DNA of 64,000 bases from Sulfobacillus benefaciens (lineage in GTDB: Bacteria > Bacillota > Sulfobacillia > Sulfobacillales > Sulfobacillaceae). Shown here in pieces: positions 7,175 through 34,042 of this stretch (its first letter is position 1; each line of letters opens with the position of its first letter). The position numbers were made by a program, and so were the translations under genes. The stretch covers positions 1 to 64,000 of the forward strand of contig PXYT01000010.1 in the NCBI GenBank assembly GCA_003023725.1, read 5' to 3'. The notes below the pieces were generated by a model. That model worked only from the letters and a program-made list of their open reading frames with translations. It had not been told where the DNA came from and made no database searches.

Positions 7175-8551
7175 CTACTCACTTTTCTTGTAAGAATCGG
7201 AACCGTTTTCATCCGGCGTTTTTTGGTCGGGGCTTAGATAGACCAGCTCGCTGTCCGGGTCATAGTGAAAGAGCTCGGCGAAACGCCCCCAGTTTATCGC
7301 CGTGGTCAGCTGGCGTTCGGCCTCAGCGACAGAAAAGTGTTCTTCGAGGATATCATTGAAGAATTCCTTAGGCATGGCGTGGTTCGTTTTATTGCGCAAG
7401 ACGCGTTCGATGAGGTTGAACAGGGGAACGTCTTTCAGTTGTTCACGAATTATCCGCTTGCGCTCGGAGACATCGGCATCGGCAAACTGCTGACCCAAAC
7501 CCGTGAGAGTGAGGTCGCCTTCTTTGACCTCGGCCAAGTGAAAAAGTTCGGCAGTTTCCGTTACCGGAAGTAAATCGTCAACTTCCAAAAACAGCTCGGA
7601 ACCGAGACGATATAAGTCGTCCCGGTTTCCGCGATCGGCGACCAATTCCAGAAGTCCGCTCACCATGGACACGTGGCCGTAGGGAATGGGGGCAAGCCTG
7701 ACTCGATCACGCGGGGCGTTAAGCTCGTCCCCGGTTTTTGGGGGGAGTGCTTCCTGTTCGTCGTTGCGGCCAGTGACGATTTTATAGACGGAATCGACCA
7801 GATCGATAAATTCCTGGGACTTGCGGTTCCGGGGGTAGGGTAAGGGAACTGACAAGTCGGCCGTGATCCGGGCTGGATTTTTTGACAAGATGATAATGCG
7901 GTCGGCCATAAACACGGCCTCCTCAATTCCATGCGTAACCAGCAATATCGCCCGGGTGGGAATTTTTGATTCGAGCCAAAGGTCTAACAGTTCGGAACGC
8001 AAGTTTTCGGCGGTCAGGAAATCGAGGGCTGAAAACGGCTCATCCATACACAGAAGCTCAGGATCGACGGCTAGCGCCCGTGCGAATCCCACGCGCTGGC
8101 GCATGCCCCCCGACAGCTCCTTGGGGAAAGCGTCTTCGTAACCACTCAATCCAATAAGATCCACAAGTTTCAAAGATTTTTCCCGGCGTAAGGACCGTGC
8201 TTCCCCCTTCGCCACCAGACCCAGTTCGACATTCTGCAAAATGGTCAGCCAAGGATAGAGGGCAAACGACTGAAATACCATAGCCGCCTGTGGATTGGGT
8301 CCGGTGACGGGGTGGCCGCGGTATAAAACCGTCCCGTAAGACGGACGGGAGAGACCGGTAATAATGCGCAAAAGGGTGGATTTGCCCGATCCCGAGGGTC
8401 CCAGAAGTGCCACAAACTCTCCCGAATGGATGTCCAAGGTGATATCGTCCAGTATCCGAATGTCGTACTTACCGGGTTGTGTATAAGTCTTGGTCACGCC
8501 CAAGAGACGGATAAGGCGATCTGTTTCCTCATACGGCGGTATGTGTGCCAT
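7175..8551 (-). CDS. NitT/TauT-family ABC transporter ATPase with AAA-associated C-terminal domain
   Basis: Energises the adjacent fused permease at the inner face of the membrane. Residues 1-about 260 form the ABC ATPase: Walker A GPSGSGKST, Q-loop VFQSFALYPW, signature LSGGMRQRVGFARAL, Walker B LLCMDEPFSALD and H-loop LVTHGIEEA. The remaining roughly 170 residues resemble the AAA-associated C-terminal domain found on nitrate/sulfonate/taurine-type ATPases, which explains the length of 458 residues. ATG 8551 has GGGAGG upstream. It starts 20 bases after the permease gene, so the two form an operon. No periplasmic-type substrate-binding protein is encoded nearby, so the substrate is unknown. 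Confidence 0.93.
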   Translation of the reverse strand: MAHIPPYEETDRLIRLLGVTKTYTQPGKYDIRILDDITLDIHSGEFVALLGPSGSGKSTLLRIITGLSRPSYGTVLYRGHPVTGPNPQAAMVFQSFALYPWLTILQNVELGLVAKGEARSLRREKSLKLVDLIGLSGYEDAFPKELSGGMRQRVGFARALAVDPELLCMDEPFSALDFLTAENLRSELLDLWLESKIPTRAILLVTHGIEEAVFMADRIIILSKNPARITADLSVPLPYPRNRKSQEFIDLVDSVYKIVTGRNDEQEALPPKTGDELNAPRDRVRLAPIPYGHVSMVSGLLELVADRGNRDDLYRLGSELFLEVDDLLPVTETAELFHLAEVKEGDLTLTGLGQQFADADVSERKRIIREQLKDVPLFNLIERVLRNKTNHAMPKEFFNDILEEHFSVAEAERQLTTAINWGRFAELFHYDPDSELVYLSPDQKTPDENGSDSYKKSE

Positions 8552-8571
8552 GGATCATAAGCCTCCCTGGA

Positions 8572-10281
8572 TTAAAAGGAATAGCGTTTGGATGCGCGGT
8601 TATAGAGTGATCGCCAAATAAAGCGGTTAATCAGCACGACGATGACGGCCAGGCTTGCTGTAGCCAGCAGCAGAAGCGAAAACTGCCCCTTTTGCGAGCT
8701 CTGGGCAATCAGTGATCCCACGCCGAAGGTCGTATAAGTGTGGTTGTGAAAACTGACATACTCCGCCACGATGCTGGCGTTCCATGCTCCGCCTGATGCG
8801 GTGATGAGACCTGTTATCAAATAAGGATAAATGGCAGGTAAAATTAAGTTTTTCCAGGCATGCCATCCCTTTAATCCGAACATGGTGGCCGCTTCCCGCA
8901 AATCCTCGGGGATGGCAGAAGCGCCCGCAATCACGTTAAACAAGATATACCATTGTGTGCCTAACACCATCAACAAGACGGATGCGGTTTCCAAGCCTCC
9001 GCGTAAACCAATTAACAGGGCAACGAGACCCGGAAACAACGCAGTGGCGGGAACCGAGGCCGCTATTTGGGTCAGAGGGGTGAGCGGTTGAGCCCATTTG
9101 GGATGCAAACCGATAAAAACTCCTGCGGGCACGGTCCAGATTACCGAAATCAATAACGAGAGCAGGACGCGCGTTAAAGTAGCGCCCACGGCCATAAGAA
9201 CCGTCAGTATTTGGAACCCATTCCATTGAGACATGAGATGCACGGAGCCTTGCCAAGCCATAAACACGGCAAAGAGAGAAAAGGTCAAAAGCAGGGCACG
9301 AATGATTCCCCCCAACGTGCTAACCGCTGGCACTTTGTGAATAGAGGGCACGGTGCGGGAAAAAAAATGATCGCTCCATTCCGTTAAAGGAGAGAACACA
9401 TGCTGACCCAGCCACCCTACCAACAGTGATCGCCGCAACAGCATGAGCACTGCCGAACGGGGTACCGACGAGGAACCTTCAACGAACTTCATTTTGAATT
9501 TGTCGGCCCATGCCAATAACGGACGCCAGACGATCTGGTCCATCGCCACAATCACCAAAATTAACACGACGAGACCCCAAATTTCTTTGGCCCAGTTTCC
9601 CTGGTTGGCCGCCGTTTGCAAATAGGATCCCAATCCTTGCAACTGATAGTTGTGGTTGCCTAATGAGAACATTTCCGCAGCCATCAAAAAGAACCAGCCT
9701 CCCGCCCACGACATCATGGAATTCCATACCAGACCGACCATGGAATAGGGCAGTTCCAACAGGCGAAAGCGCTGCCATGCCGACAAATTCAAAGACCGCG
9801 CCGACTCTTTTAAGTCGCTGGGAATGGTAATGAGGCCATTATACAGCCCAAAGACCATGTTCCAGACCTGTCCGGTAAAAATTAACAAAATAGACGCGAG
9901 ATTGACTCCGATCCGGGATTCAGGGAAGAGAGCAATGAAAGCGAGCAGTACCACAGGCAAAAAAGACAACACGGGAATAGACTGCAGAATGTCCAGAAGG
10001 GGAATCAAAATTTTCTCGGCACGCTTATTGTAGGCCGCCAGGTAAGAATACCCAAAGGTAAAGAACAGCGAAATAATATAGGCAGCGAACATGCGCAACC
10101 AGGAATACAAGGCGTAGAGAGGGAGCCTGGCATAGGACAGGGAAATGCCTCCGGTTTCCGGACGGTAGGAGTGTGCGTGGGTCGCCCATGTGATCACAAA
10201 ATACACGATAGCTACCATAAGGCTTCCCACCAAAATGTCGGCATAACTTAGTCCGGTCCGTCGGCTTGTGTTGTTGGACAT
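8572..10281 (-). CDS. ABC transporter permease, two fused transmembrane units (NitT/TauT type)
   Basis: Integral membrane protein of 569 residues with two repeated binding-protein-dependent permease units. The first (about 20-260) carries the EAA-loop segment ARSLNLSAWQRFRLLELP and the second (about 310-560) carries EAATMFGLKGWHAWKNLILP. About twelve hydrophobic segments are visible. The fused arrangement means a single chain could replace a permease dimer. ATG 10281 has AAGGAG at 7 bases. It is the first gene of a permease-ATPase-(hsp20) unit and divergent from the histidine kinase. The family usually imports nitrate, sulfonates, taurine or related anions; specificity cannot be read here. 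Confidence 0.92.
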   Translation of the reverse strand: MSNNTSRRTGLSYADILVGSLMVAIVYFVITWATHAHSYRPETGGISLSYARLPLYALYSWLRMFAAYIISLFFTFGYSYLAAYNKRAEKILIPLLDILQSIPVLSFLPVVLLAFIALFPESRIGVNLASILLIFTGQVWNMVFGLYNGLITIPSDLKESARSLNLSAWQRFRLLELPYSMVGLVWNSMMSWAGGWFFLMAAEMFSLGNHNYQLQGLGSYLQTAANQGNWAKEIWGLVVLILVIVAMDQIVWRPLLAWADKFKMKFVEGSSSVPRSAVLMLLRRSLLVGWLGQHVFSPLTEWSDHFFSRTVPSIHKVPAVSTLGGIIRALLLTFSLFAVFMAWQGSVHLMSQWNGFQILTVLMAVGATLTRVLLSLLISVIWTVPAGVFIGLHPKWAQPLTPLTQIAASVPATALFPGLVALLIGLRGGLETASVLLMVLGTQWYILFNVIAGASAIPEDLREAATMFGLKGWHAWKNLILPAIYPYLITGLITASGGAWNASIVAEYVSFHNHTYTTFGVGSLIAQSSQKGQFSLLLLATASLAVIVVLINRFIWRSLYNRASKRYSF

Positions 10282-30372: not shown

Positions 30373-30822
30373 TTGTCTCTCCGGGAACAACTGAACGAGG
30401 ACCTTAAATCGGCAATGCGGGCTAAGGATCAAGCCCGCCTGTCGGTAATTCGATCCGTAAAAGCGGCAATCCTGGCGCAGGAAACCCGAGGTGAGCGTAT
30501 AAGCCTGGATGAGGCGGGAATTTTACAGGTAATTGCCAAAGAAATTAAGGAGCGAAAAGACGCCAACCGAGAATTCGAAAGAGGCGGGCGGCAGGATCTG
30601 GTAGAGAAGAACCTGAAAGAAATCGAAGTCTTGTCTTCTTATCTTCCCGAGCCTCTTTCAGAAGAAGAGCTGAGGGAAATTATTGAAAATGCGGTACAAG
30701 CTTCTGCGGCCACGTCGGCTAAGGACATGGGAAAGGTCATGGCCATTGTTACCCCTCAAATCCGGGGCCGGGCCGAAGGGCGGCACGTGGCGGAACTGGT
30801 CAAGATCCGGCTAATTCAATAG
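30373..30822 (+). CDS. yqeY: GatB/YqeY-domain protein
   Basis: 149 residues, the stand-alone version of the C-terminal tRNA-binding domain of GatB. The LREQLNEDLKSAMRAKD start, KEIEVLSSYLPEPLSEEEL centre and the ending with KDMGKVMAIVTPQIRGRAEG are typical. The molecular role of stand-alone YqeY is not established; tRNA-related metabolism is assumed. The start is TTG 30373 with AGGGGG upstream. It is the second gene of the rpsU unit. Confidence 0.95.
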   Translation: MSLREQLNEDLKSAMRAKDQARLSVIRSVKAAILAQETRGERISLDEAGILQVIAKEIKERKDANREFERGGRQDLVEKNLKEIEVLSSYLPEPLSEEELREIIENAVQASAATSAKDMGKVMAIVTPQIRGRAEGRHVAELVKIRLIQ

Positions 30823-30825
30823 CCA

Positions 30826-31872
30826 ATGAAGCGAGCACGAAGTCCCTTTGAGTCCCATCGGGTTTGGTTACGGTGGTTCAAAGGGGCTTTGTTGATTTTT
30901 TTCGCTCTTATCCTTGCGGGATGCAGTGCGTTTTCGGGTCGTTCCCGTCCTCCAGGTATAGCGATTTTGTTTGCGAAGCAAAGTAAGAACGGACACGAGA
31001 CGCTTGTGCTAGGTCGCTATAATGCCAAGGGCCAGCGTGAAGGCCCTTGGATATCTATTGGTCGCCTGGGCCTGGTAGCCCAGACACAGATTATGGCCAG
31101 TCATGGCGGCAATCTTTGGATAACCACCGGTTTATCGCTAAAACAGTTCGCGCAGAGCGGCTCAGTGAGAACCTTGTGGTCGGCCCCAGGGCACTCGGCC
31201 ATTTTATCAGTCGACTACATTGCAGGTCATCTTTGGGCGATTGTGGAACCAATAGGCGGTCGCGTCGTGGACATCTATCGTCGGCAGCAAGGGCACTTCG
31301 TGAACATCGCGACAGGGCCTTTGGCGATCACGACGCTCTATCCAGCTCCTTTTGACCAGCTGGGAATATTGCGTGTGTGGCCGGACAAGGCTCAGGTGCA
31401 GTTGTGGCAACCGGACAGAAAGTCTCGACAATGGACAGTCCATGCGGTACCGCAAGGAACCATGGGACTGACCAAAACGAAAGGATATTTGCCGGTAACC
31501 GAAGGGTTGCACAAATTTGGCATGGCTTCTGTTTCGTTAAAGGGCACACACCTGCCCTCCATACGGTTTTATCGTCATGTCAGCCAGGCCGTCATTGAGG
31601 TGATACCGTCCAATCCTCTGTATGGCATAACGGTTCAGGGTGTCGTGGCGTTGCCTGGCTCAAAATCTCGACCCGTTCCGAGGAAGTGGCCTCAGCCTTT
31701 ATTGGCCACGGTAACGACGGCCGTGCAGTCGCCGGCCTCGTGGTTGATTATCCTGGACGGTCCCAGCCAAGGATTGTGGTTTAATCCCCGCTCAGATAGT
31801 TTTGGCCCCGTCTTCCAAGTAACGGCCCCTAAGGGGGCTTTTCCGCGGGCAGTGCAGCCGTGGGGTGGGTAG
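30826..31872 (+). CDS. Lipoprotein of unknown function
   Basis: 348 residues. A basic start (MKRARSPFESHRVWLRWFKG), a hydrophobic core and the lipobox LILAGC give a lipid-anchored extracytoplasmic protein, with the modified Cys near residue 33. The rest is rich in short beta-strand-like stretches with recurring Gly-Trp/Leu-Trp patterns (GNLWITTG, GHLWAIVEP, QGLWFNPRSD), suggesting a beta-propeller fold; that is inference. No good ribosome binding site precedes ATG 30826, three bases after the yqeY stop, so it is likely translationally coupled. It is separated by one base from a convergent minus-strand gene. Confidence 0.72.
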   Translation: MKRARSPFESHRVWLRWFKGALLIFFALILAGCSAFSGRSRPPGIAILFAKQSKNGHETLVLGRYNAKGQREGPWISIGRLGLVAQTQIMASHGGNLWITTGLSLKQFAQSGSVRTLWSAPGHSAILSVDYIAGHLWAIVEPIGGRVVDIYRRQQGHFVNIATGPLAITTLYPAPFDQLGILRVWPDKAQVQLWQPDRKSRQWTVHAVPQGTMGLTKTKGYLPVTEGLHKFGMASVSLKGTHLPSIRFYRHVSQAVIEVIPSNPLYGITVQGVVALPGSKSRPVPRKWPQPLLATVTTAVQSPASWLIILDGPSQGLWFNPRSDSFGPVFQVTAPKGAFPRAVQPWGG

Positions 31873-31873
31873 A

Positions 31874-32536
31874 TTAGACAAATCTAGGATTGATAGGAAC
31901 CCGTCTCCAATGTCGAGCGGGATCGGGAGCGTAGCGGGGCAGGAAAGGGATTTTAATGGGAGGAAGGCCGCTGAAGTCGGCGAGGAAGACCTCACGCTCC
32001 AACTTTTGTCCGATGTTTAACAGCCGATCAAGTTCATCGTCCTGAATCCGAACAGGATGGAGACCGGGAAAGACTGCCAAAAGATAGGCTAAAGCATCCC
32101 AACCCACAGTGGGCTGATCGATCCATAACCCCAGTCCCGGAAACCGGCTACGCATCTTTTCAATCGAGTTGACAAGATTTGCCAGGCGATGATGCGCGGG
32201 GCGTATGAGAATGAAGCGGGTCAGTTTTGGCCCCGGCCAGAGTTGGTCCACCAAATCGAATGGAATGTCATCCGACGGAGCCGTCATTTCGATAAAGCCG
32301 TCAAAAGCGTTAAGGGTCGCCAAATCCGGCACGGTGCCTGGGGTAATGTGCCATGTGCAGCCAGGGATCGGCATGATGGCGGAACATGATGGCGCAGGCC
32401 TTGGGGTTTCCGTTTGAAAGAGGACATGACCCCTTTCCTGGTGGCTTAGGAGAAACAAACGGATCATGCGGTCGGCATACGGTGGGTCGTGGGAATCCAT
32501 CTTTAGACAGGGAACCCATAAAATATCGGCACTCAC
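31874..32536 (-). CDS. Unknown partner protein of the radical SAM enzyme
   Basis: About 220 residues with no recognised family. GTG 32536 is inferred because it overlaps the stop of the upstream radical SAM gene (GTGA); the frame is open further upstream but inside that gene. The sequence is mixed alpha/beta, with WVPCLKMDSHDPPYADRMIR near the start, a Cys-containing central region (PIPGCTWHITPG), hydrophobic strands and helices (FDGFIEM, TRFILIRPA) and a basic C-terminus. There is no cysteine cluster and no signal peptide. Tight coupling suggests it works with the radical SAM enzyme, as partner, carrier or next enzyme. Confidence 0.7.
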   Translation of the reverse strand: MSADILWVPCLKMDSHDPPYADRMIRLFLLSHQERGHVLFQTETPRPAPSCSAIMPIPGCTWHITPGTVPDLATLNAFDGFIEMTAPSDDIPFDLVDQLWPGPKLTRFILIRPAHHRLANLVNSIEKMRSRFPGLGLWIDQPTVGWDALAYLLAVFPGLHPVRIQDDELDRLLNIGQKLEREVFLADFSGLPPIKIPFLPRYAPDPARHWRRVPINPRFV

Positions 32537-33381
32537 GGCTCCAACACCTCTTTGGTAGCCATGGCCCGTGATACGCCGTGCCATTGCAAGAGATCGCAGA
32601 CATCGCCGGACAGATGGTCAATGTTCATGGCCACGATCACATGAGGCAAATTTTTCCGAATAACCTGGATGGTCGCCAGCACTTCAAATAAATGTGGGGA
32701 GCCGAGGATTTCCAAATCGGTTCCTAAGGCCCGCAATGGTTTTATTTCGATGACCGATAAACTTTTCAAATTCCGGATCATTTGAATATGGTCCAGTATT
32801 TGTCGTTCGGTAATACCGGGGAATACCATGAGACTCGCTCCTGCTTTGAGCCCTACACGTTCCGCGATTTGGTGGATACCTAACCACTCCTGGGATGTCA
32901 GACGCAGAGAGGACATTTCCTGCCGCCACGGGTCAATTAGCAACTCGCTGCCTCCAGGACCGAGACTGCTTGCCCCCGCCCAGCGCAATTCTTCCAACAA
33001 TTCCTGCAGGGGTTTTTGTTCAACGCGATGAAAGTGTAACACTTCCACAGCGGAAAGGGCTTGAAGGGAAGCCGGGTTGCGTTCGTGAATGTCCCGGATC
33101 GCCGACCTGAAGTAACTCCACGGTTCGAAGAAACTCAGTCCACCGCGTACCTTGATAAGGTCATAGGCCTGAGACAGAGCCGGATGGGTTCGGGACGTTT
33201 GCAACAAAGTCAATGGCGGGACCGGATGACCATCAATCATCGGCACGAAGTGGCTAAAATCGCAAAAGCGGCACCGCATCCAACAAGAGCGCGTGGTGGT
33301 AATCTTGAGCACGTGGACAACGTGCCATCCGCCTTCCGGGCTGTTGGGCCAAATGGGTTGGTATTGCAGCAAGTCTGTCAT
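32533..33381 (-). CDS. Radical SAM protein resembling MqnE/MqnC/CofH
   Basis: About 282 residues. The iron-sulfur motif is CWMRCRFCDF (C-x3-C-x2-C). Further segments resemble the aminofutalosine synthase / futalosine cyclase / CofH group: VRGGLSFFEPWSYFRSAIRD, LGPGGSELL where relatives have LPGGGAE or LPGTAAE, then WLGIHQIAERVGLKAGASLM. It is about 80-100 residues shorter than those enzymes. ATG 33381 is chosen because AAGGTG lies 6 bases upstream; ATG 33441 would add 20 residues. With its coupled downstream gene it forms a divergent insert inside the yqeY-yqfC region. The substrate is unknown; a menaquinone, deazaflavin or other radical coupling step is possible. Confidence 0.82.
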   Translation of the reverse strand: MTDLLQYQPIWPNSPEGGWHVVHVLKITTTRSCWMRCRFCDFSHFVPMIDGHPVPPLTLLQTSRTHPALSQAYDLIKVRGGLSFFEPWSYFRSAIRDIHERNPASLQALSAVEVLHFHRVEQKPLQELLEELRWAGASSLGPGGSELLIDPWRQEMSSLRLTSQEWLGIHQIAERVGLKAGASLMVFPGITERQILDHIQMIRNLKSLSVIEIKPLRALGTDLEILGSPHLFEVLATIQVIRKNLPHVIVAMNIDHLSGDVCDLLQWHGVSRAMATKEVLEP

Positions 33382-33532
33382 GACGTTCACCTTCATGGGT
33401 TCGTGCCAAATTATCGAATTAAGGCCGGAATTCTCAAACATCTCTTTTGGGACGGCGTCCGTATGTGTTCAGAGTTTTCGGATTCTCTCGAAGAATCCCC
33501 GCGTGTTCGTACAAAGCTCATTATACACAAGT

Positions 33533-33721
33533 ATGATGCCATGTGTTTATGTGTGGTGCCGGCACCAGTCATTGAGCCGTAATATTCCCTATCATGCATT
33601 GGTTAAAAGCATTTCCCCTGATGTGGTCTGGGATGCCCTCATTTCCAATCCGCGGCGCGAAAGGCTTCATTGCATGGCGGATCCACATTCTTATTTGTTG
33701 ATCATGCTCCGCCCGCTTTAG
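33533..33721 (+). CDS. Possible 62-residue small protein upstream of yqfC
   Basis: A plus-strand frame starting at ATGATG (33533) and ending just before yqfC. The C-terminal half (SISPDVVWDALISNPRRERL and on) has protein-like composition. No Shine-Dalgarno sequence precedes it, but TATACA lies at 33522-33527, so a leaderless transcript is conceivable. No family recognised. The same -10-like element could instead simply serve yqfC. Confidence 0.33.
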   Translation: MMPCVYVWCRHQSLSRNIPYHALVKSISPDVVWDALISNPRRERLHCMADPHSYLLIMLRPL

Positions 33722-33760: not shown

Positions 33761-34042
33761 ATGAGAAGAGGACGAAACCTGACCCGGGTCGCCCAGTGGC
33801 TTGAAATACCACCCGAAGTGTTGGTGAATGTTCCTCGTATCGAAGTGGTCGGACACCTCCAGTTCCGTGTGGAAAATCATCGAGGGTTAGAGAAATATGG
33901 ACCGGATCTTATCGTGTTGCGGCTGTTTGAAGGGTATCTTGTTGTACGGGGAGAGAAGTTGGTAATCGGGTGGATTGACGCCGGGGAAATTCTCGTCACC
34001 GGAGAAGTTCGTTCACTCATGTTTCAGGAGGGCAAGCATTGA
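33761..34042 (+). CDS. yqfC: Sporulation protein YqfC
   Basis: 93 residues, YabP/YqfC family, needed with YqfD around the forespore in sporulating Firmicutes; biochemical role unknown. PRIEVVGHLQFRVENHRGLEKYGP contains the family's conserved ENHRG segment, and GEILVTGEVRSLMF is the usual C-terminus. ATG 33761 follows GAGGGGGAA. The stop overlaps the yqfD start (TTGA). Confidence 0.93.
   Translation: MRRGRNLTRVAQWLEIPPEVLVNVPRIEVVGHLQFRVENHRGLEKYGPDLIVLRLFEGYLVVRGEKLVIGWIDAGEILVTGEVRSLMFQEGKH

Follow-up and report, generated by a model that had tools for sequence, protein, structure and literature searches.

The stretch of DNA analyzed here (the window, 64,000 nucleotides of Sulfobacillus benefaciens contig PXYT01000010.1) carries two overlapping minus-strand genes in a slot between yqeY and yqfC. 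The first encodes a radical SAM protein of 282 amino acids, with its ATG at 33381 and its stop codon ending at 32533, in which the sequence CWMRCRFCDF makes up residues 33–42. The second encodes a partner protein of 220 amino acids and runs from a GTG at 32536 to 31874. The features of the locus are as follows.

30373..30822, plus strand: YqeY, the upstream flank of the slot
30826..31872, plus strand: conserved lipoprotein gene, 348 amino acids, convergent to the pair
31874..32536, minus strand: orphan partner, 220 amino acids, with residues invariant in 27 members
32533..32536, minus strand: GTGA overlap of the radical SAM stop and the partner start, kept in all genera except g7
32545..32551, minus strand: AGAGGTG, ribosome-binding-like sequence for the partner, within the final codons of the radical SAM gene
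32533..33381, minus strand: radical SAM protein, 282 amino acids (E=1.6e-27 to the MqnC model; all model matches below curated cut-offs)
33256..33285, minus strand: CWMRCRFCDF, the CX3CX2C motif for a [4Fe-4S] cluster, invariant in 30 family members
33387..33393, minus strand: AAGGTGA, ribosome-binding-like by reading of the sequence, 5 nt before the radical SAM ATG (33381)
33410..33549, minus strand: two matches to a sigma-70-like promoter (33549-33520 and 33437-33410), both upstream of the pair
33761..34042, plus strand: YqfC, which bounds the slot on its other side and is divergent from the pair

The flanking genes, which code for DnaJ, PrmA, RsmE, YqeY and the lipoprotein on one side and for YqfC, YqfD, PhoH, YqfF and YbeY on the other, are all on the plus strand, and the pair stands opposite to this conserved operon, as an earlier, sequence-only reading of the window had proposed. 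That reading had also described a radical SAM gene resembling MqnE, MqnC and CofH that is translationally coupled through GTGA to the 220-residue gene. Both points held, with a model match at residues 27–206 of the ORF at 32533-33381 and with the GTG at 32536 overlapping its stop codon. In family genera other than g7, the stop/start overlap often reads GGAGGT...CCATGA, which means that the final codons of the radical SAM gene contain the ribosome-binding site of the partner; most relatives have GGAGGT at the position of AGAGGTG in the window. The number of sigma-70-like matches upstream of the pair equals the chance expectation, and no pathway genes were seen near the pair. The lipoprotein gene at 30826-31872, which is without a known family, has the same location in Ca. 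Hydrogenisulfobacillus and in most members of the family.

Comparison with curated family models revealed that the MqnC, MqnE and CofH models match the radical SAM protein over about residues 22–207 (E values of 1.6e-27, 1.8e-25 and 1.9e-18, respectively), with scores that are roughly a quarter or less of the cut-offs. Neither the MqnC equivalog TIGR03699 (96.3 bits against a cut-off of 428.1), the MqnE equivalog TIGR03700 (89.6 against 434.55) nor the CofH model TIGR03551 (66.4 against 374.1) was reached, and the 80 bits obtained with TIGR00423 are far below its cut-off. The Pfam radical SAM match, at 26.9 bits, lies just under the cut-off of 29.5. A profile of the family matched MqnE in the PDB (6xi9, E=3.5e-25), and profile-profile comparison with 30 MqnC/MqnE-type references extended over the entire barrel (E=1.6e-36). 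The best PDB match of an AlphaFold model was likewise MqnE, lipoyl synthase being only a weak fold match; this model, with a mean pLDDT of 62, and that of the partner were built from sequences of the window and related loci, which gave shallow alignments. Prokaryotic viperin was not matched in PADLOC, and its profile matches in the PDB were weak (E ~0.003).

Residues C33, C37, C40, G81, L82, S110, E113, G143, G144, R160 and D260 are invariant in the family, in which all 30 proteins, drawn from 10 genera, keep the three cysteines and the active-site core unchanged. With the 30 MqnC/MqnE-type references, the family has in common these cysteines, GGL, E113, GGxE (E146), R153, W166 and, mostly, H198. 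Missing relative to the references are the N-terminal part, the YGHxE and QDxTGGFxxFIP motifs, the C-terminal GADDLxGTxxEE motif and the final 40–50 residues, while R31, W34, K77, E86, R160 (lysine in the references), E212 and D260 are newly conserved. The shortfall in length noted in the sequence-only reading was thus substantiated at ~80–90 amino acids against references that are mostly 343–373 amino acids long (extremes 420 and 450). In a maximum-likelihood tree that took in MqnC and MqnE sequences and left out those of CofH, the family branched as a separate clade (support 99), apart from those of MqnC and of MqnE. The CX3CX2C motif in an MqnE-like barrel, together with clear MqnE profile and fold matches, makes the protein a member of the radical SAM superfamily, and whole-barrel homology and common core motifs place it in the MqnC/MqnE/CofH group in the wide sense. 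Judged from these motifs, it probably acts like the enzymes of this group, but by none of the criteria applied does it qualify as MqnE, MqnC or CofH.

The partner has no recognized family, as the sequence-only reading had stated. Searches with its sequence in Pfam, NCBIfam, PHROGs, PADLOC, plasmids and the PDB gave no match, and the result was the same when the members of its family were scanned against Pfam and NCBIfam and when its profile was compared with the PDB. Seven residues (P9, H37, S50, R112, G145, R181 and D187) are invariant among 27 members. The model of the partner (mean pLDDT 59, shallow alignment) is confident only for approximately residues 50–165, which consist of alternating strands and helices, and a fold search with it returned nothing significant (best E 0.065). 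The possibility that the partner is a degenerate radical SAM half was rejected, as the profile-profile comparison with the radical SAM family gave P=0.057, which is no better than the controls (P=0.01 for the best of them).

The assembly of the window (G000) belongs to one genus with G019, and G020 is a member of the same family. The radical SAM gene occurs in 30 of the 34 family genomes and the partner in those same 30, contrary to the possibility, raised with the sequence-only reading, that the partner might be absent from all relatives that carry the radical SAM gene. Wherever the contig reveals the place, the pair lies in the yqeY/yqfC slot in the same order. Values of dN/dS are ~0.08–0.13 for the radical SAM gene and 0.15–0.20 for the partner, so that both genes are under purifying selection; this recurrence, together with the low dN/dS, shows that the pair is not due to chance. 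The four genomes without the pair are two incomplete assemblies and two g2 genomes that are nearly complete and have lost it, so that the pair is dispensable. Lack of respiration was rejected as the cause of this loss, since the g2 genomes have several COX1 genes. A LysR-type gene is found in (G001, L115:8678-9592) or near (G002, L116:11955-12863) the yqfC/yqeY slot of the g2 genomes.

Outside the family, the partner was not found in a 398-genome sample of the phylum. Within the class (154 genomes), it was seen only in the family and one further genome, G514, and matches in three other class genomes (E ~0.009) were taken as chance. The radical SAM profile detected only weaker, ~360-amino-acid proteins of MqnC/MqnE type beyond the family, and a Chthonomonadales match (L033) was rejected as a relative because it is an ordinary MqnE/MqnC-type pair. 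A defence or phage origin was also rejected, there being no match in PADLOC, PHROGs, plasmids or viral contigs (the latter without the profile of the partner). The pair is real, conserved and lineage-restricted and, within the libraries and papers that were searched, undescribed.

In 17 family genomes outside the genus of the window, representing most of the other genera, a third gene follows the partner on the same strand, mostly after a gap of ~10–30 nt (L040:8976-9572, L047:8983-9669, L053:8953-9636 and 14 more loci); this gene is missing from the slot in the genus of the window. The product is a tandem rhodanese-fold protein of ~200–230 amino acids. Alignment found no cysteine at either active-site loop, and the protein is thus probably not a sulfurtransferase.

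The one genome outside the family, G514, which is taken to be the genome published for Ca. Hydrogenisulfobacillus filiaventi R50 (PMC10080006), has a syntenic pair (L146:7223-8071 and 8068-8718), again with a GTGA overlap. Of its two proteins, the second is homologous to the partner (hhalign probability 97), and the first resembles the barrel from residue 71 onward (E 1.3e-5 in a single-sequence comparison). No CX3CX2C motif was present in any frame of this region, and the GC pattern by codon position is that of a real gene. Synteny and a modest profile score suggest that the first protein is a barrel homologue, and this homologue without the cysteine motif would mean that radical chemistry is not required for the pair to be retained.

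By a slight balance of probability, the pair constitutes a radical SAM enzyme that is specific to this lineage and has a second subunit of its own, a reading supported by translational coupling, constant co-occurrence in the family, purifying selection, and the kept cysteines and acidic/glycine core. The low confidence of both models, the Ca. Hydrogenisulfobacillus homologue without the cysteine motif and the loss of the pair in g2 weigh against it. The first protein would bind a [4Fe-4S] cluster and reductively cleave SAM to yield a 5'-deoxyadenosyl radical, which would act on a small, probably polar metabolite, either by abstracting hydrogen or by radical addition. As the motifs on the substrate side are gone and the newly conserved charged residues K77, E86, E212 and D260 are found instead, futalosine and the tyrosine/ribityl-uracil pair would both be excluded as this metabolite. 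The partner, with predicted beta-alpha repeats in its middle, may bind the barrel and stand in for the N- and C-terminal segments of MqnC/MqnE (~60–70 and 40–50 amino acids). In most other genera, the rhodanese-fold protein, devoid of catalytic cysteine, joins the operon, probably in a binding or scaffold role. It is possible, though on the unlikely side, that the pair represents a new radical SAM pathway which only the Sulfobacillus family and one relative have; the missing terminal segments of the enzyme would have passed to the orphan, and Ca. Hydrogenisulfobacillus would have kept the complex and dropped the cluster.

The sequence-only reading had also suggested an uncharacterized two-protein radical SAM pathway, perhaps related to quinones or cofactors. 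Its first part stands, in that the protein is distinct and has an obligate orphan partner; the quinone or deazaflavin role is not supported. The 34 family genomes contain no MqnA/MqnD (PF02621; positive controls matched), no true MqnC or MqnE and no CofH-group protein above the TIGR00423 cut-off, and orthology to MqnC or MqnE accompanied by futalosine genes, the outcome that this reading had named as contrary to it, was not found. MenD scores above its cut-off in 29 of the 34, in agreement with the menaquinone and demethylmenaquinone published for Sulfobacillus, which respires with them (PMC4378227; PMC8489842), and the menaquinone of the family is made via the classical MenD route. Membership in futalosine or F420 synthesis was rejected on the basis of the sub-cut-off scores, the missing MqnA/MqnD and CofH, the separate clade and the lost motifs. 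The same evidence, along with the missing ~80–90 amino acids, contradicts a diverged MqnE/MqnC/CofH ortholog in these pathways, which we regard as highly improbable even though the best matches by model and by structure are MqnC and MqnE. That the pair is what remains of a decaying futalosine operon is just as improbable: the protein is shortened, the pair was lost in g2 and one relative lacks the cysteine motif, yet within the family this idea is contradicted by strong purifying selection, intact coupling and motifs conserved in 10 genera. A part for the pair in the classical Men pathway, where it would tailor or make a respiratory quinone, is improbable but deserves slightly more credence, as the nearest characterized relatives are menaquinone makers, Sulfobacillus respires with menaquinone and demethylmenaquinone, and the g2 genomes have neither the pair nor MenD above the cut-off. 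This correlation is broken by the sister family f141, all seven genomes of which are MenD-positive and without both genes, and G006 has the pair with no MenD match above the cut-off, so that a quinone link is not supported. In addition, other bacteria complete the MenD route without such a pair. G001, G002 and G006 have no MenD above the cut-off and no MqnA/MqnD, yet they carry terminal oxidase genes; for G006, this may reflect incompleteness.

The main rival to a two-subunit enzyme is a complex that is non-catalytic or sensing, whose functions would be mainly binding, sensing or regulatory and whose barrel and rhodanese domains would be ligand-binding scaffolds instead of catalysts. The Ca. 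Hydrogenisulfobacillus barrel homologue lacking CX3CX2C, the rhodanese fold without catalytic cysteine encoded by the third gene of 17 relatives and the absence of pathway genes close by are consistent with such a complex. It is nevertheless unlikely, because the invariant cysteines and active-site core would be needless for a pure scaffold. The rhodanese fold in the third operon gene and the sulfur-oxidizing hosts (PMC4378227) would also fit a sulfur-linked enzyme, e.g., one acting at a lipoyl- or thio-cofactor step in the oxidation of sulfur. The chance of this is slim, given that the rhodanese domains have no catalytic cysteine, that the genus of the window has no rhodanese-fold gene in the slot, and that the strongest resemblance is to MqnC and MqnE, lipoyl synthase being a weak match by fold.

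Cofactor synthesis through unusual chemistry characterizes the MqnE/CofH group of radical SAM enzymes, of which, to our knowledge, few members are known. The present pair is conserved across biomining acidophiles that have neither the futalosine nor the F420 pathway, and it must therefore act on another substrate. Its syntenic homologue without the cysteine motif offers a natural test of what radical chemistry contributes, and the genetic context, the conserved residues and cultured, sequenced hosts (S. acidophilus, S. thermotolerans) make a two-subunit enzyme open to experiment.

Among known systems, MqnE (TIGR03700; PDB 6xi9/6xig) shares with the radical SAM protein the barrel, CX3CX2C, the glutamate of an AFSxVE-type motif, GGxE, and the arginine and tryptophan positions. 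Unlike the protein described here, it has ~60–70 additional N-terminal and 40–50 additional C-terminal residues and the YGHxE, QDxTGGFxxFIP and GADDLxGTxxEE motifs, and the genome of the window is without MqnA/MqnD. MqnC (TIGR03699) is the best family-model match and has the same core motifs, but it falls in a separate clade and differs by the same missing motifs. CofH, or the corresponding half of FbiC (TIGR03551, TIGR00423), resembles the protein in the superfamily core, whereas its models score far below their cut-offs and no CofH-group protein above the cut-off occurs in the family genomes. LipS1/LipS2 are two radical SAM proteins with a lipoate-protein context, whereas the pair has one radical SAM protein. 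The two-protein systems CofG-CofH and PqqE-PqqD likewise combine an enzyme with a second encoded protein; in contrast to these, no peptide substrate gene was seen at the locus, and the partner is without similarity to known partners in family and PDB searches.
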